The position numbers and the translations under genes are program-made. Shown one piece after another: positions 26,493 through 33,776 of a stretch of DNA of 64,000 bases (within the stretch, counting starts at the first letter, position 1; each line of letters begins with the position of its first letter). The stretch is from contig NZ_BNEM01000001.1 of assembly GCF_018327705.1 (NCBI RefSeq), positions 4,216,001-4,280,000 of the forward strand. Direction: 5' to 3'. The notes under the pieces were generated by a model, which was given only the letters and a program-made list of their open reading frames with translations, was not told where the DNA came from and did no database searches. Origin of the DNA: Catellatospora sp. TT07R-123 (lineage in GTDB: Bacteria; Actinomycetota; Actinomycetes; Mycobacteriales; Micromonosporaceae).

Positions 26493-28283
26493 ATGGACAT
26501 GAACAAGTGGTTCTACCGAGCCGTCGGCGCCGTCGGCGTGGCGAGCGGCGTCATGCTTCTCGGCAGTGGCGTCGCGCACGCTGAAACGGCCACCGAGGCC
26601 AAGCCGACCGCAGATCTTCAGGCCATGCGCGGGTTGGTGGCCGATCTCCTCTCACCCACCGGTGGGCTGAGCAACCTGGGCCTGTCGCTGGACACGCCGG
26701 ACGCCCGGGTCGACGCCGGGCTGCTGCCCGACGGTCCCGTCGCGATCAAGCGCGGCTCCGGCGGCCTCGGCGTCACCGCGCACGCCCTCGGCGGCCAGGA
26801 CATCACGCTCGCGGGCAAGCTCCCGCGCCTGTCCGCCATGCTGCCCAGCTCCAACCTGCTCTCCGGCACCACCGGCCTGCTCGGCCAGACCGGCCTGCTC
26901 GGCGGCACCGAGGCCGCGCAGACCGAGGGCCTGCCGCTCGGGCCGCTCGGCGGCCTGCTCGGCGGTGAGGGCACCAGCCCGGTCAGCGGCCTGACCGGCG
27001 GGCTCACCGGCGGCCTGCTCGGCAAGGCGAGCCCCATCGGCGGGCTCACCGACGGCCCGCTGGGCAGCCTCACCGGCGGCCTGCTGGGCGGCGACGCCGC
27101 GGGCGGCGGAAGCGGCCCGCTCGACGGCCTCACCGGCGGCCTGCTCGGCGGGGACAGCGGCGGTCCGCTGGGCGGGCTGACCGACGGCCTCAGCGGCCTG
27201 ACCGGCGGGCTCAACACCGGCAAGCCCGACCGCGCGCCGTCGGCACCGGCCGCCGCCGCGCCGTCCGCCGGCGACATCAGCCAGGACCGCTTCGCCGACT
27301 GGCTGGACGAGCCCGACCCCATGTCCCGCCAGGCCGACATGCTGCTCGACGGCGGCATGCTCGACCCCAGCGACCAGCTGGGCCTCACGCTCGACCCGGT
27401 GCTGTCGCAGCAGGTCGCCGACGCCACCTCGCAGATCGTCCCGTCGCTGATCGCCGACGCGATGGGCCACGGCAGCGTCGACGACCTGCTCGACGCCCCG
27501 AACGGCCTGGCTCCCGGCGCCGACCTGCTCGCGGGCGGCCCGACCGAGGGCATCCCGTTCCTGGGCGGCATCCCGATCGTGGGCGACCTGCTCGGCGACG
27601 GCGGTCCGCTCGACGGCATCCTGGTCATGGGCGACATCGCCAAGCAGCTCCCCGTCGTCCGGGACGTCGTCAACGGCAAGCTCGGCCTCGACACCATCAA
27701 CCAGGTCCCGTTCGTGGGCGGCCTGCTGCGCAACGGCATCGTCCAGGGCGGCAAGCCGGGCGGCTCGCTGCCGATCGTCGGCTCGCTGCCGATCGTCGGC
27801 GACGCGCTGGGCAAGGTCACCGGCAACCTGAGCGGCGCCGGCCTGGGCCGCGGCGCGAACATGCTCGCGCCCCGGACGGCCCTGCCGCAGCCGGGCCTGG
27901 CTCCGGCGACGCAGCCGCAGCTGCTGCCCGCGCCGGCAGCCCACACGCTGGACGCCGCCCCGGCCAACCAGCACGTCGGCCGCCACCGCGCCACCGACCG
28001 CCCGATCGCGGGCGAGGACGCCGAGTACGCCGACCCGGCCGGTACGCCCGAGGAGCTGCCGCTGGTGGGCCAGCTGCCGCTCAGCGGCCTGCCGCTGCTG
28101 GGCTCGCTGACCGGCAGCGCCCCCGCGGGCGCCGGCGGCGCGATGCTCCCGGTCAGCGGCCTGGTCAGCCAGCTGCCGCTGGTCAACGACCTGCCGCTGC
28201 TGGGCAACATGGGCACTTCGATGGAGGTGCTGCGGTCGCTGCCGATCGTCGGCACCGCCGCGGGCCTGCTCCCGCTGGGCTGA
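26493..28283 (+). CDS. secreted Gly/Leu-rich repetitive protein
   Basis: 596-residue exported protein with a signal peptide (WFYRAVGAVGVASGVMLLG, then GVAHAETA). Residues about 120-260 are nearly all variants of GLTGGLLGG, some interrupted by GPLG or SPIG. Later parts repeat proline-marked versions such as LPIVGSLPIVGD, IPFLGGIPIVGD and LPLVGQLPLSG, between more ordinary acidic stretches. No enzymatic motif, LPxTG anchor or C-terminal transmembrane helix is seen. The strongly amphipathic GL repeats suggest self-assembly at a surface, as in chaplins or hydrophobins, but no homology to those is visible. Start ATG 26493 (or 26499). Divergent from the channel-like gene. Confidence 0.8.
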   Translation: MDMNKWFYRAVGAVGVASGVMLLGSGVAHAETATEAKPTADLQAMRGLVADLLSPTGGLSNLGLSLDTPDARVDAGLLPDGPVAIKRGSGGLGVTAHALGGQDITLAGKLPRLSAMLPSSNLLSGTTGLLGQTGLLGGTEAAQTEGLPLGPLGGLLGGEGTSPVSGLTGGLTGGLLGKASPIGGLTDGPLGSLTGGLLGGDAAGGGSGPLDGLTGGLLGGDSGGPLGGLTDGLSGLTGGLNTGKPDRAPSAPAAAAPSAGDISQDRFADWLDEPDPMSRQADMLLDGGMLDPSDQLGLTLDPVLSQQVADATSQIVPSLIADAMGHGSVDDLLDAPNGLAPGADLLAGGPTEGIPFLGGIPIVGDLLGDGGPLDGILVMGDIAKQLPVVRDVVNGKLGLDTINQVPFVGGLLRNGIVQGGKPGGSLPIVGSLPIVGDALGKVTGNLSGAGLGRGANMLAPRTALPQPGLAPATQPQLLPAPAAHTLDAAPANQHVGRHRATDRPIAGEDAEYADPAGTPEELPLVGQLPLSGLPLLGSLTGSAPAGAGGAMLPVSGLVSQLPLVNDLPLLGNMGTSMEVLRSLPIVGTAAGLLPLG

Positions 28284-28295
28284 GCCCGACCCGGC

Positions 28296-28329
28296 GCGCC
28301 CGCGTACGGCCCCGGCTGTACGCGGGCGC
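28296..28329 (+). terminator. GC-rich terminator hairpin
   Basis: Twelve-bp inverted repeat, GCGCCCGCGTAC and GTACGCGGGCGC, with a 10-nt loop, starting 13 bp after the stop of the Gly/Leu-rich gene. No U-tract follows. Typical of high-GC actinobacterial terminators. Confidence 0.7.
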
Positions 28330-28375
28330 GGCACCAGGACAGCGGCGCCGGCCGTACCCACGGCACAATGCGCCC

Positions 28376-28855
28376 ATGCCCTCGGTCCAGCCCGTCCGCA
28401 CCACCCGGCTCACCCCACGGCCCACCCTCGGCCTGCTCTACCTCGTCGGCACCGTCCTGTCCGCGCTGCTGCTGGCCGCCACCCTCGTCGACGGCCGGAT
28501 CGACCCGCCCGCCACCGTCGCGCTGCTGTGCCTGCTCGTCGGCTCGCAGTTGCTGTACCAGCGCGGCATCTACCTCGTCGGCGACCGGCTGCTGCTGCGC
28601 AACCCGCTGTCGCGCACCGTCGTCCCGCTGGACCGGCTGCGCGCCGTCTACATCCGGCCCCTGCCCGCCAGGCCCGGCAGCCGCCTGCTGCACCTGGAAC
28701 TGCACGACGGCACCGTGCTGCGCACCCACGTCGGCGTGACCCGCAGCCCGCTCTCGCCCGCCGTCAAGGTCTCGTTCGAGCAGCTCGTGGGGCTGGTCGG
28801 CACCATCGACAGCCACCGCCGCCAGGCCACGGGCGCCGACGCCGCCGCCTCCTGA
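28376..28855 (+). CDS. small membrane protein with PH-like domain
   Basis: 159 residues. Two closely spaced membrane segments (about 20-38 and 47-62) are followed by a short beta-rich domain (YLVGDRLLLRNPLSRTVVPL, then LDRLRAVYIRP, LHLELHDGTVLRTHVG) resembling the PH-like domains of actinobacterial DUF-type membrane proteins. No catalytic residues. Function unknown. It sits alone between a terminator hairpin and the 49-residue-repeat gene. Confidence 0.7.
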   Translation: MPSVQPVRTTRLTPRPTLGLLYLVGTVLSALLLAATLVDGRIDPPATVALLCLLVGSQLLYQRGIYLVGDRLLLRNPLSRTVVPLDRLRAVYIRPLPARPGSRLLHLELHDGTVLRTHVGVTRSPLSPAVKVSFEQLVGLVGTIDSHRRQATGADAAAS

Positions 28856-28963
28856 CCGGCGCCGCCTCAGCCGAACCGGTCGGCGCACCGGCCCATCGTC
28901 GGCTTTGCTCAGTCGACGGCAGATGAAAGGCTTTCCCCGTTTCGGGCTCGGGGAGGAGCGCAC

Positions 28964-31207
28964 GTGGACAGGAACGAGCTGGTCAACGAGGCCGAACGTG
29001 CCCTGTGGGACGCGTTCGCCACCGGCGGCCTGGTCGACCTCGGCTCGGGCGACCCGGCCGCGGCAGGGTTCGATCCGGACACGTGGGGCGCCGACCGGAC
29101 CGTGCGCGCCCAGTTGATCGCGCGGCTGCTGCTCGGCGTACGCGACGTCGAGCGGGGTTACATCGCCAAGGTGCGGCTGGCCGGGGCGCTGGTCACCGGC
29201 GACCTCGACCTCAACGGCGGCGACACCGCATACGAACTGCACCTCGACCGGTGCTGGCTGGACCGGGCGCCCGACCTGGCCGACGCGTTCACCAAGGGTG
29301 TCGCCTTCACCGGCTGCCGCCTGCCCGGCCTGACCGCGCACGGCCTGCAGACCTCCGGCCCCGCCCACCTGACCGGCAGCCGGGTCGAGGGCGAGCTCGA
29401 CCTCAACGGCGCCCGGATCGCCGGGCAGCTGTCCATGGCCGGAACCCGGCTGGTCAACCCCGGCGCCGACGCCCTCAACGGCTGGAACCTGGTCGTCGAC
29501 CAGGACCTGATCTGCAACGAGGGGTTCACCGCCGACGGCACCGTGGCGCTGTCCGGCGCGCACATCGGCGGGATGCTGCTGCTCATGGGCGCCGAGCTGC
29601 GCCGCCCCGGCGACTACGCGCTGAACGCCCAGAACCTGGCCGTCGACCGCGACATGCTCTGCCAGGACGGCTTCCGCGCCGAAGGCACGATCGAGCTCAG
29701 CGGCGCCAAGGTGGGCGGGCGGTTCTCCCTGATCGGCGCGGTGCTGGTCAACCCCGACGGGTACGCCCTCAACGCCCAGAACCTCGTCGTCGAACGGGAT
29801 GTCTACTTCAACAACGGGTTCGACGCCAGCGGCACCATCGACCTCAGCGGTGCCCGCGTCGGCGGGCAGCTGTCCATGCTCGACGCCACCCTCAGCCGCC
29901 CCGGCGGCCAGGCGCTCAACGCCCAGAACCTGTCCGTCGGCGAGAGCCTGCTCGCCTACCGGGGCTTCACCGCCACCGGCGCGATCGACCTGTACGGCTC
30001 CCGCGTCGACGGTCAGATCTCGCTGGTCGGCGCCACGCTCAACAACCCCGGCGGCCGCGCGCTGCACGCCCAGAGCATCACCGTCGGCCAGGCGTTCTAC
30101 GCCTACGACGGCTTCACCGCCAGCGGCCTGGTCGACCTGAGCGGCGCGAAGATCGGCGGGACCCTGTCCCTGGCCGGCGCGAAGCTCGACAACCCCGGAG
30201 CCGACGCGCTGGCCGCCGAGAACCTGCACGTCGACATGGACATGACCTGCCACGGCGGCTTCACCGCCACCGGCGGCGTCAACCTGTACGGCGCCACCGT
30301 CACCGGGCAGCTGTCGCTGGCCGGGGCGAAGCTGGCCAACCCCGGCGGGCTGGCGCTCAACGGGCGCAACCTGACCGTCGGCCGGATCCTGCAGTGCTCG
30401 TACGGCTTCTCCGCCGAGGGCACCGTGTCCCTGGCCAACGCCACCCTCAGCGGTGCCACGTTCGCCGGGGCCACCTTCACCGTGCCCGACGGCGGCGCCT
30501 CCACCACCCATCTCACGCTCGACTGCGAGTCGCTGAGCACCGGCTGGCTGACCCTGCCCGACGCGGTCCCCGGCGTCACCGACCTGCGCCAGGGCACCAT
30601 CGGGCGGCTCTGCGTGCCGGCCGGGGCGCTGCTCAACCCGATGCGGCTGAGCGGGCTGACGTACACCGATCTCGACCCCGACCCCGACCCGCCGGTGCAC
30701 CTGCGGCTGGGCTGGCTGCGGCGCGACCCCGACGGCTACCACCCGCAGCCGTACGAGCAGCTCGCCGCCTACTACCGCACCAACGGCCACGATCGGCAGG
30801 CCCGGATCATCCTGCTCGGCAAGCGGCGCACCCAGCGGCGGTACAGCAGCGGCCCGCTGAGCCTGGCCGGCCTGCTCCGCCGCATCCCCGGCCTGCTCAT
30901 CGACGCCCTCGCCGGGTACGGCTACGTCCCCGCGCGGGCGTTCGCCTGCCTGCTCACCGCCATCGCGGTCGGCACGTTCGTCTTCCGCCCGACCGGCGCG
31001 ACCCAGCCGACCGACGACCTGAACGTGAACGCGCTGCTGCTCGCCATCGACGCGATCATCCCGACGTCGCCGTTCGGGCTGGTCGGCGCCGCCGGGCTGT
31101 CCGGGGCGGCGTACCTGGCGGCCATGGTGCTGCAGGGGTTCGGCTTCGCCCTGTCCATCGCCGTCCTGCCCGCCCTCACCCGCACCCTGGCACGCGCCGA
31201 CAAGTAA
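28964..31207 (+). CDS. membrane protein with seven 49-residue beta-solenoid repeats
   Basis: 747 residues. N-terminal part (1-150) is mixed. Then come about seven tandem copies of a repeat exactly 49 residues (147 bp) long. Each begins like ALNAQNLVV and contains a GF-x-A-x-GTIDLSGA-x-VGG block followed by NPGG. Sheet-like alternation predicts a right-handed beta-solenoid, as in pentapeptide or bactofilin-type proteins. C-terminal residues about 600-660 are basic (GKRRTQRR), and two or three membrane helices follow (about 660-740). Homologues are often labelled oxidoreductase, but I see no cofactor motif. Start GTG 28964 has GGGAGGAG six bases upstream. Probably a cytoplasmic solenoid tethered to the membrane; function unknown. 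Confidence 0.82.
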   Translation: MDRNELVNEAERALWDAFATGGLVDLGSGDPAAAGFDPDTWGADRTVRAQLIARLLLGVRDVERGYIAKVRLAGALVTGDLDLNGGDTAYELHLDRCWLDRAPDLADAFTKGVAFTGCRLPGLTAHGLQTSGPAHLTGSRVEGELDLNGARIAGQLSMAGTRLVNPGADALNGWNLVVDQDLICNEGFTADGTVALSGAHIGGMLLLMGAELRRPGDYALNAQNLAVDRDMLCQDGFRAEGTIELSGAKVGGRFSLIGAVLVNPDGYALNAQNLVVERDVYFNNGFDASGTIDLSGARVGGQLSMLDATLSRPGGQALNAQNLSVGESLLAYRGFTATGAIDLYGSRVDGQISLVGATLNNPGGRALHAQSITVGQAFYAYDGFTASGLVDLSGAKIGGTLSLAGAKLDNPGADALAAENLHVDMDMTCHGGFTATGGVNLYGATVTGQLSLAGAKLANPGGLALNGRNLTVGRILQCSYGFSAEGTVSLANATLSGATFAGATFTVPDGGASTTHLTLDCESLSTGWLTLPDAVPGVTDLRQGTIGRLCVPAGALLNPMRLSGLTYTDLDPDPDPPVHLRLGWLRRDPDGYHPQPYEQLAAYYRTNGHDRQARIILLGKRRTQRRYSSGPLSLAGLLRRIPGLLIDALAGYGYVPARAFACLLTAIAVGTFVFRPTGATQPTDDLNVNALLLAIDAIIPTSPFGLVGAAGLSGAAYLAAMVLQGFGFALSIAVLPALTRTLARADK

Positions 31208-31396
31208 CCGGCGGAACTCGCCGGACCGACCCTGAACAGGCATTATTGCCCCCGGTCGGCATGGCGGAGGAGCAGGTTGGCAGCGGTACGGCGGCGAGTG
31301 CTGCGCAACGGACTCAACCGTCTCGCGGCGGCGGCCTGACCGGGGTGGTCCCTCGCCGCAGCGGCCGAGTGACGGTGCGGCGAGGTGCCCTGACGG

Positions 31397-32797
31397 CTAC
31401 GTGCGTGGCAAGAAGCCAGCGAGCTGCGCGTGTCGACGCAGCGTGGTCTTGATCGCATCGCGGATGCTAGAGGGCATCGTGTTCTCGGCGGAGAAGGCTT
31501 TCATCTCGACGATGACCTCCGACTGGAACGAATTGCCGCGGGACACCAAGATGTCGGCACGCACCGTGCTGTGAGGCGTGACGATGTCCTGCTCGTGCTT
31601 GGCCGAGATGCCGATCTCCCCCAGGCAGTAGGCAAGCCGCCTGCCCAAGCCGACCGGGTCTCGGGTCACGCCTGAGGTGTTGTACCAGTCCCGCGCTACC
31701 GCAGCCCGCTTCGACTCGCGCTCCTTCATCGGTGTGAAGGAGTCGAGGTTCCAGGTCTCTTTCAGAAGCGAAACGAAATGCGACTGCTCGAAGCGGTCCA
31801 GGTACGACTTGCCGATACTCGGCGCGCTATCGCTCAGGTCCCGGCACAGCGGGTAGATGTCCGCTGCGGCAATCGGCACCAGGCGCACGTCGAAGTACAG
31901 CCGGGCGCGGTTGTACGCCGCGAGCGGGAGCGTACGGCGATCGTCGGCACTCAGCTCCTGGTAGAAGGACCCCCAGTTGAGCCGGTAGCCCTCCCGCGCA
32001 TTCGTGAATGACTGGATGCGCTGGATGCGCAGGCCGTCGGTCACCGGCCACAACATGACGACCTGGTGCTTCGAGAGGTCTTGCAGGGCTCCCATCCGCT
32101 CCCCGAGCTGCCCGCCGACACGCTCGATGGCCGAACCGATGGTTCCCGTCGTCGCGGCGATCTCCTCCAGGTCGGTACGCAGCACCTCCTGGTCGGGCAG
32201 GTTCTGGCCGCCGTTGTGGAACTCGAAGGTCTCCTCGATGATGGCGGGCCACTCCGACTTGGCGGGCCCGACCAGCTCCATGCCCGCAGACGCCAGGATT
32301 CGCTCGTTGCGGGTGGTCGCCCCCGCAAGTTGGGCCTGGAACTCCCGGCTGGTGGTCAGCCAGACCACCAGCACGCAGCTGTCCTTCAGCACGCCACGGT
32401 CGAGCAGGCTCAGCCGCTCCACGAACTGGCTGGGCACCGCGTTCTGCTCGGCCACCACCTCCTCGTACTGGTCGACGACGGCCACGGTGATCTGGGGCGT
32501 GAGCTGCCCACGCCCGGGGTGTGACGTGACCGCCGCGACGAGTTCAACCTCGGACTGGATCTGGCTGCGGGTCAGCTCCACCACACGGCACTCGGGAAGG
32601 TGGGTCGCGAGCTCCCGGACCGCGCTGCTCTTGCCGGACCCGCTGCGCCCGTAGAGCGGCAGGAACCGGAGACCTCCCGAGATCTTCATCGAGCTGTAGC
32701 AGCGCTGGACGACCTGAATAAGATCCGGATTGGGCCGGAGTCGAGCGCGAAAGGCGACATCGAGATCTTCATAGCGCGACGGAAGTCTGACGCTCAA
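31397..32797 (-). CDS. STAND-like P-loop ATPase with C-terminal PD-(D/E)XK nuclease domain
   Basis: 466 residues from TTG 32797 (SD AGGAG eight bases upstream; a TTG at 32833 adds 12 residues). Walker A is LYGRSGSGKSS (Lys56). Walker B is VAVVDQYEEV (Asp109), the DQxEE form seen in nSTAND-type NTPases. The middle (about 180-380) has no motif I recognise. The C-terminal 90 residues look like a restriction-endonuclease fold: helix LGRRLAYCLGEIG, then RADILV (Asp415), fifteen residues on VEMKAF (Glu431, Lys433). ATP-dependent sensing plus DNA cleavage would fit anti-phage defence, but that is inference. Codon usage is less GC-extreme than its neighbours. It lies next to a phage tail fragment and a tRNA gene. 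Confidence 0.8.
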   Translation of the reverse strand: MSVRLPSRYEDLDVAFRARLRPNPDLIQVVQRCYSSMKISGGLRFLPLYGRSGSGKSSAVRELATHLPECRVVELTRSQIQSEVELVAAVTSHPGRGQLTPQITVAVVDQYEEVVAEQNAVPSQFVERLSLLDRGVLKDSCVLVVWLTTSREFQAQLAGATTRNERILASAGMELVGPAKSEWPAIIEETFEFHNGGQNLPDQEVLRTDLEEIAATTGTIGSAIERVGGQLGERMGALQDLSKHQVVMLWPVTDGLRIQRIQSFTNAREGYRLNWGSFYQELSADDRRTLPLAAYNRARLYFDVRLVPIAAADIYPLCRDLSDSAPSIGKSYLDRFEQSHFVSLLKETWNLDSFTPMKERESKRAAVARDWYNTSGVTRDPVGLGRRLAYCLGEIGISAKHEQDIVTPHSTVRADILVSRGNSFQSEVIVEMKAFSAENTMPSSIRDAIKTTLRRHAQLAGFLPRT

Positions 32798-32928
32798 CGC
32801 TGCTGCTCCTGTGGTCGTCTCAACGTGAAGCAACTACTCTACCGACCACGACCGACGGGCCGCTCGCATCTTTCGATCGGCTCCTCCGAGGCGCCGTCTT
32901 TACGTGTCGGCACCCCGTCCGAGCCCGG

Positions 32929-33531
32929 TCAGTTGGTCGCGATCAACGACGCCGTCAGCGCCCGGCTGGTGATGTTGGTCGGACCGCCTGTCCACGTCCA
33001 GCGACACTGCGCCTGCAACACGTCGCCGGGGCTGAGCTCCAGCAGCACCCGGGTCAGGGCGGCCACCCCGATCCCGCTGTCTCCCTGCTTCTGTCTGCGC
33101 CAGAGCAGGGTCGTCCCATTCAGCATCAGCGACACCGACAGGCTGGTGATGGTCGTGAACCCGAACAGCGTGGCCGCGCTCGCACCGCACAGGTACAGGC
33201 CGCCAGTCCGGATCGTCAGCCGGTCATTGTTCACGGCAAGGTTCGCCATGTTGTCGTTGTCCCACACCTCCTCGGTGTAGGTCATCGTCGTCGCGGTGTT
33301 CACGACCACCGACTGGTTCGGGGGCACCTGCGAGCGCACGTACGCCGACGGCCGGTTGGCCGCAGCCGCCGCGGCGGCATCCCCGGCGGCCAGCGCCGCC
33401 TCGATGTCCTGCGCGAACGTCTGGAAGACGGCCGGGTTGATGGTGTCGCCACCGCACGGGTAGCGGATGCCGAGCAGTGGTGTCGATTCGGATCGGCCAC
33501 CCGCCGACCGGGCCGCGCCTGCGGCAGTCAA
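32929..33531 (-). pseudogene. phage tail/fibre-like protein, 5' end missing or degenerate
   Basis: The frame encodes STPLLGIRYPCGGDTINPAV, then ALAAGDAAAAAAANRPSAYV and a beta-rich C-terminus (TEEVWDNDN, LYLCGASAATLF, GGPTNITSRAL) like the C1q/tail-fibre-type structural proteins of actinophages and phage-like islands. Family members usually begin just before TPLLGIRYP. Here there is no ATG or GTG near that point; only a distant TTG at 33531 without an SD. The upstream coding looks unrelated. I therefore take it as a truncated prophage remnant. It lies between the ATPase-nuclease gene and tRNA-Thr on the same strand. Confidence 0.5.
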
Positions 33532-33648
33532 TCTGGTTCGACCTGCTCGTGGTCGTGGCCTGTGACGCGCTGGGCGTGGCGGCATTCGCAGCACTGTTCC
33601 TGCTATCCATGCCGTAGCTCGCCTGGCAAGAAGCCTGGCAAGACAGAA

Positions 33649-33683
33649 GAGCCCCCGTCCGGGAGACAACCCGGCAGGGGCTC
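33649..33683 (-). terminator. terminator after tRNA-Thr
   Basis: GAGCCCC and GGGGCTC form the outer stem and CCGGG/CCCGG the inner stem, beginning 21 bp past the tRNA 3' end on the minus strand. A T-rich TTCTGTCTTG follows. Good candidate for the tRNA transcription terminator. Confidence 0.75.
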
Positions 33684-33703
33684 TGACTCGCGGCGGGATA
33701 GTG

Positions 33704-33776
33704 AGCCGACCGCGGGACTTGAACCCGCAACCTTCCGATTACAAGTCGGGTGCGCTACCAATTGCGCCAGGCCGGC
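33704..33776 (-). tRNA. tRNA-Thr (anticodon UGU)
   Basis: 73-nt cloverleaf on the minus strand. Acceptor arms are GCCGGCC and GGTCGGC, the D stem GCGC/GCGC, the anticodon loop CTTGTAA with anticodon TGT, and the T arm GCGGG-TTCAAGT-CCCGC. CCA is not encoded. The anticodon stem has one C-A mismatch at its outer pair. It reads ACA codons, rare in this GC-rich genome. Its 3' side faces the phage-like remnant, the usual geometry for tRNA-targeted integration. Confidence 0.95.

Follow-up and report, generated by a model that had tools for sequence, protein, structure and literature searches.

A rare gene beside tRNA-Thr in Catellatospora, predicted to join an AAA+/STAND-like ATPase module to a PD-(D/E)XK-like nuclease domain

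What would a lone ATPase gene with a nuclease-like C-terminus do beside a tRNA gene of a soil-type bacterium, and how did it come to be there? The gene lies in the stretch of Catellatospora sp. TT07R-123 DNA analysed here (64,000 nucleotides, positions 4,216,001-4,280,000 of contig 1; 'the window'), and we found a single copy of it in the 9.17 Mb genome (two contigs). The original prediction, made from the letters alone, read it as a STAND-like ATPase fused to a PD-(D/E)XK nuclease, acquired by horizontal transfer next to a phage remnant and perhaps acting in defence. The gene and its predicted protein have the following features, in window coordinates:

31397..32797, minus strand: ATPase-nuclease gene, 466 aa; TTG start, TAG stop; homologues found
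32806..32810, minus strand: AGGAG ribosome-binding site, 8 nt upstream of the TTG, read from the sequence
32084..32794, minus strand: AAA+/STAND-like ATPase module, residues 2-238
32624..32650, minus strand: Walker A, GRSGSGKSS, residues 50-58; SGxGK invariant in 8/8 aligned
32459..32479, minus strand: Walker B, VVDQYEE, residues 107-113; D and first E invariant in 8/8 aligned
31763..32083, minus strand: middle domain, residues 239-345, conserved; possible helix-turn-helix
31400..31762, minus strand: putative PD-(D/E)XK (Mrr-like) nuclease domain, residues 346-466
31553..31555, minus strand: Asp415 of the D...ExK motif; invariant in 11/11
31499..31507, minus strand: Glu431-x-Lys433 of the D...ExK motif; Glu in 11/11, Lys in 9/11

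The reading frame is intact, and both Walker motifs, Asp415, Glu431 and Lys433 stand where they had been predicted. Its TTG start agrees with the relatives, as the motif LP(S/A)RYEDL follows 4 residues after the start here and the likely starts of the relatives lie 3-11 residues ahead of it. The frame is more than a chance one because it has a 59%-identical plasmid homologue and invariant ATPase- and nuclease-type residues. All of the aligned sequences (8/8) keep the Walker A and B residues, D415 and E431 unchanged, including three that share only 15-19% identity with the window protein. Lys433 is less constant, being Thr or His in two remote sequences of an 11-sequence alignment, which counts against the reading that we prefer below. 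The possible helix-turn-helix of the middle domain is suggested by a weak HTH_Tnp_Tc5 match in one relative (L003; 16.5 bits, cut-off 22.2).

The two Walker motifs, with SGxGK and the Walker B Asp invariant, place the protein among the AAA+/P-loop NTPases. A structure search with the predicted model assigned an AAA+ fold to the N-terminal half, in favour of our preferred reading. For the whole model, the list of structural matches (covering residues 1-237 only) was headed by Orc/Cdc6/RFC AAA+ ATPases. Clamp loaders and Orc/Cdc6 were the best among the matches listed for the ATPase, plant NLRs came lower, and no nuclease chain was among them. Nearly all named matches listed from a viral structure library were AAA+ proteins too, and a sequence search against solved structures gave no meaningful match. 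The predicted membership of the STAND class was not established. None of five family members reached the nSTAND1 (PF20703) cut-off of 27.1 bits (window, 23.2; L012, 26.9; L003, 26.2; L004, 26.5; L005, 17.9), NACHT gave 12.2 bits in the window protein (cut-off 26.7), and the Pfam matches of that protein up to E 1 included no family of STAND-type sensor repeats. At 466 aa there is no space for a long repeat array, and beyond residue 238 the model mixes helices and strands.

The original prediction was to fall if the modelled structure lacked a nuclease fold; the full-length model contains elements that would suit one. Residues 380-458 are modelled as a helix, five short strands and a helix, with pLDDT block means of 81-93 over residues 381-460 apart from one of 63. 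This arrangement could be that of a PD-(D/E)XK core, as described in the part of PMC1913061 consulted. The isolated domain was modelled at a pLDDT of 52.3, which speaks against our preferred reading, and it was therefore kept out of the fold search. Among sequence models, Mrr_cat (PF04471) scored 22.8 bits in the C-terminal fragment of L012 (cut-off 21) and 19.4 in the whole L012 protein, with no match in four of the five C-terminal fragments scanned, the window's among them. PDDEXK_9 (PF08011), which we take to be today's name of DUF1703, gave 13.7 bits in the L012 fragment (cut-off 25.5) and nothing in the window protein.

In a profile comparison with 19 Mrr_cat domains (19 of 30 matches went into that profile), the Asp of both sides fell in one column and ExK lay opposite the equivalent xxK, in favour of our preferred reading. 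The C-terminal profile, tried in four versions, gave scores of 20.1, 21.0, 14.7 and 15.2, compared with 11.3-11.8 for three other protein segments and 7.5-9.7 for five column shuffles. Two of the four versions exceed the controls by only a little, and the reported probability was low (0.9-7.3%), again to the disadvantage of our preferred reading. We consider it quite probable that the C-terminal domain of the window protein is a PD-(D/E)XK nuclease. At the level of sequence, the predicted union of an ATPase and a C-terminal PD-(D/E)XK-like domain in one protein is supported.

How the gene came to this place can be read from its surroundings:

31214..33692, no strand: strain-specific island, from the pentapeptide-repeat gene to tRNA-Thr; absent in G016; boundaries approximate
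33703..33776, minus strand: tRNA-Thr(TGT); very likely integration site
32929..33669, minus strand: orphan ORF, same island; phage origin not confirmed

Genome G016 lacks the island: about 120 bp there lie between the end of this pentapeptide-repeat gene and this tRNA-Thr, compared with 2.48 kb in the window. Genome G133 holds about 1.4 kb of other DNA at that place, with one 52-bp stretch alike at 81%; there the tRNA-Thr(TGT) is followed by a tyrosine-integrase fragment and a bacterial PH-domain gene (L041, 1804-3260). In G125 the genes behind it include an integrase (PF00589), the replication initiator RepSA of pSAM2 type (481 bits) and one of FtsK type (L044, 2703-8851). By its gene set this is an actinomycete integrative element, as we take the class to be called. 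Since integrative-element genes at the same tRNA-Thr in G125 are joined by an integrase remnant in G133, we regard this tRNA as a very likely integration site and, for the genus, a probable integration hotspot. The window island may have arrived by an integrative element and then decayed.

The window gene has a GC3 of 0.87 and the other island ORF 0.82, whereas three neighbouring genes beyond the island reach 0.94-0.97. Position beside the tRNA, more relaxed base composition and horizontal transfer were all claimed by the original prediction and are upheld; it had also seen no partner gene in the island, and none is obvious. Attachment sites of the island were not found. We did not accept an att-type tRNA duplication at the far island end, as no copy of the tRNA end lies there; a 15-nt imperfect repeat pairs the gene end (31403) with 33621, outside the tRNA.

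The phage tail fragment and phage remnant of the original prediction were not confirmed. Neither the 50,697 phage records nor PHROGs yielded a match to the orphan ORF at E 0.01, and Pfam, up to E 1, offered it just one family, of phage tail tubes, at 12.9 bits with a cut-off of 24.2. In the other 149 family genomes it had only weak matches, in two. A phage origin was rejected, neither it nor the window protein having a match in phages or PHROGs, with none in viral contigs either, and the elements at this tRNA in sister genomes are of integrative type, not phage. The neighbouring pentapeptide-type repeat protein (window 28964-31207) has seven matches in the genome, itself included, and is present in 3/11 genomes of the genus, this one included. 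A 1541-aa open frame at window 26618-31243 (minus strand), antisense to other long frames, is most likely an effect of high GC and not a gene.

Relatives of the window protein are few and scattered. Exact-peptide seeding in one genome per species (84,980 species) gave eight loci at 44-58% identity, a lower bound: in Pusillimonas, Rhizomicrobium, Kineococcus, Tateyamaria, Aeromonas, Methylobacterium, a Hyphomicrobiales bacterium and a Hyphomicrobiaceae bacterium. A plasmid search added one homologue (L012), which covers 97% of the protein at 59% identity and is carried by a 95-kb plasmid of Pseudarthrobacter; it pairs with the window protein in the tree (86/89, no fork starred). Only 1/300 family genomes carries the gene, two further matches being weak and partial. 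A class-wide draw of 394 genomes returned the window genome, a remote relative (G728, E 1.3e-14) and three weak matches. In two other classes, with 385 and 369 genomes drawn, only the already known genome of each class came back, along with three and six weak matches, respectively. Rarity of the gene family is suggested by these searches, in which each genome contributed only its few best candidates to the scoring. From the G728 protein (495 aa) we reached two Nostoc plasmid proteins (96% coverage, 23% identity), and the remote relatives have the same domain order.

Patchy presence over distant bacteria at 44-60% identity favours our preferred reading, as does a GC content lower than that of the surrounding locus at 7/7. 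Homologues were found neither in phages nor, with two queries, in viral contigs, and a search of E. coli genomes with Aeromonas DNA as query returned none; these results count against it. The family spread by horizontal transfer, probably as a single gene. A single-gene transposon was rejected as the vehicle, since the flanks at 10 loci (1,000 bp each side, 386 bp in one case) have no ends in common and agree only over short runs of up to 17 nt at unlike distances. No full-length model in the protein-family and defence libraries searched names the family, and no description of it was found in the literature covered (mostly open papers, main text without supplements).

Many copies are broken. 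Five of the nine close relatives are interrupted, while L003, L004, L005 and L012 are open from end to end. The Pusillimonas copy (L002) has an in-frame TGA, L007 a frame shift at a run of seven A, where a sequencing error is possible, and L009 has lost a stretch, with a shift. L008 is split across two contigs (L008 and L009 come from metagenome-assembled genomes). The Aeromonas copy (L006) is cut in two at the ends of contigs L066 and L067, which carry inverted repeats of about 20 nt (18/20) and a 9-bp duplication, like traces of an inserted element; the element itself is absent from the contigs examined. A programmed frameshift was rejected as the explanation because the frames break at different places. 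Breaks at different sites and by different causes indicate independent loss, pointing to a dispensable or costly gene, and scattered relatives that are often broken fit a costly defence gene.

Defence genes, for which the original prediction had proposed a neighbourhood survey, lay near a minority of the loci only. PADLOC matches at E 1e-20 or better lay near 4/12 relative loci, in favour of a defence role. They were ZorA3, ZorB3 and ZorG3 (type III Zorya) with a PDC-S37/Hhe-like protein in Pusillimonas (four of five neighbours scanned), and PDC-S19 adjacent, a TIR protein at 6 kb and REase_II at 11 kb on the Pseudarthrobacter plasmid (3/8). Nostoc commune (L070) has PDC-S33 adjacent and Nostoc UHCC 0926 (L071) an HmaA-like helicase 2.6 kb away (1/1 each). 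This is not a blind count, because only a small number of neighbours was scanned, some of them chosen for their annotation (5/9 called in L002, 8/38 other features in L012, 1/21 in L070, 1/17 in L071). Three of these four loci are plasmids, on which defence gene clusters are common. The PDC-S33 of the Nostoc plasmid is a RelA/SpoT-type protein (L070, 9470-10513, E 5e-128), and a weaker match of this type lies on the Pseudarthrobacter plasmid (L012, 13937-14812, E 1e-15).

The other eight loci are at control level, which counts against a defence role: their ORFs (90 of 110 called, after 20 short, doubtful or peripheral ones were dropped beforehand) gave at most two PADLOC matches at 1e-20, and four control stretches, from three genomes only, gave 1/67. 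The two matches, SspA and DndA, both of which we take to be cysteine desulfurases, are possibly one housekeeping gene. A simple script called the ORFs, and a few may be wrong. PADLOC assigned no family to the window protein at E 1, nor to three relatives at E 0.001. The Tateyamaria copy directly follows lepA; by eye, in the ORF lists, no two close loci have like neighbours. The fixed housekeeping context that would have helped to refute the original prediction is therefore missing, and contexts vary among loci.

Defence of the carrier remains the best single reading of these data, with about an even chance of being right; service to mobile elements comes second and is unlikely. On that account the protein would be an ATP-dependent nuclease of plasmids or integrative elements, excluding competitors or aiding transfer or maintenance, and the host as such would gain nothing. 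Three relatives are indeed on plasmids, in Rhizomicrobium a tyrosine integrase is only two genes away from the copy and a MobA/MobL gene about 7 kb off, and the tRNA beside the window copy precedes pSAM2-type element genes in a sister genome. The archaeal fusion arCOG03166, discussed below, is listed as 'likely involved in defense (or some plasmid gene)' in the part of PMC4158269 consulted. However, several chromosomal copies, such as that of Tateyamaria, have no recognised mobile element nearby (mostly from ORF lists), and flanking ends common to the loci were not found.

Repair genes are usually kept vertically, and the rarity of this one in the family genomes, its unrelated contexts, frequent breaks and foreign composition make a repair or recombination enzyme improbable. 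Such an enzyme, a structure-specific, resolvase-like nuclease driven by an Orc/Cdc6/RFC-like ATPase, would accord with the clamp loaders and Orc/Cdc6 that best match the ATPase and with the inclusion of Holliday-junction resolvases in the PD-(D/E)XK superfamily, as given in the consulted part of PMC1913061. Slightly less probable still is a decaying passenger that spread by chance and is now inactive in most copies, perhaps the window's too. The interrupted close relatives suggest as much, but the window copy is intact, as are four close relatives, and to keep catalytic-type residues at 15-19% identity takes selection over long times.

We therefore set out the defence reading as a mechanism. 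The protein would be a self-contained ATP-gated DNA nuclease, moving as a single gene and most likely protecting its carrier from foreign DNA, be it that of a phage, a plasmid or a competing integrative element. The AAA+/STAND-like module would keep it inactive until the conserved middle domain met its trigger; since no repeats were found, DNA or a DNA-bound intermediate is likelier in this role than a large phage protein. Contact would let ATP binding drive oligomerisation, and this in turn could unite the C-terminal PD-(D/E)XK domains on DNA for cleavage. A bolder version, which we regard as possible but doubtful, makes the family an unnamed minimal immune receptor, with an NLR-like ATPase switch, a C-terminal nuclease effector and a compact conserved middle domain as sensor in place of repeats. 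Having spread alone and for the most part outside defence islands, it would then have escaped neighbourhood-based surveys. If the defence reading is true, a compact one-protein ATP-gated nuclease joins bacterial immunity, and one that context-based surveys would miss because 8/12 loci have no excess of defence genes. Small size, a conserved middle domain and frequent breaks make trigger, gating and cost directly testable.

The original prediction knew of no named system with just this layout, yet the layout is not unprecedented: DUF1703 proteins, an Mrr-NACHT fusion and arCOG03166 precede it. Some types of Avs (AVAST) combine a STAND-like ATPase with a PD-(D/E)XK nuclease, the effector being N-terminal and the long sensor repeats C-terminal. 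The window protein differs in its 466 aa, its N-terminal ATPase, its C-terminal nuclease-like domain and its lack of a PADLOC match. With the Mrr_cat restriction endonucleases it shares the D...ExK core, the motif being in register in the low-probability profile comparison, and the L012 fragment, though not the whole L012 protein, scores above the cut-off; unlike them, it has its nuclease-like domain fused behind an ATPase, and the Mrr_cat model misses the window domain itself.

According to the part of PMC1913061 consulted, DUF1703 proteins comprise an AAA+ module, a helical linker and a C-terminal PD-(D/E)XK domain, an identical domain order in one chain. They differ in that PDDEXK_9 stays below its cut-off in the L012 fragment and has no match in the window protein, the ATPase of which looks nSTAND1-like. 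The same part mentions one fusion of an Mrr nuclease to a NACHT (STAND-type) ATPase; compared by this description only, it resembles the window protein in joining an Mrr-type nuclease and a STAND-type ATPase in one chain, whereas the NACHT score of the window protein is below the cut-off. arCOG03166, an archaeal AAA+ protein fused to a helix-turn-helix and a RecB-type nuclease in the part of PMC4158269 consulted, likewise unites AAA+, possible helix-turn-helix and PD-(D/E)XK-type nuclease. It is archaeal, whereas the window family was found here in bacteria. PF01637, an archaeal ATPase family presumably linked to arCOG03166, gave 12.5 bits in L012 (cut-off 33.2).

Comparable parts recur in other systems: restriction-endonuclease effectors, Mrr-like ones included, are reported from further NTP-dependent conflict systems (PMC7159879, in part), and among 31 further validated systems 13 have PD-(D/E)XK and 7 have P-loop NTPase domains (PMC13092281, in part). 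The window family is rare, and its layout, a single chain that carries both an ATPase module and a PD-(D/E)XK-type domain, is of a known kind.
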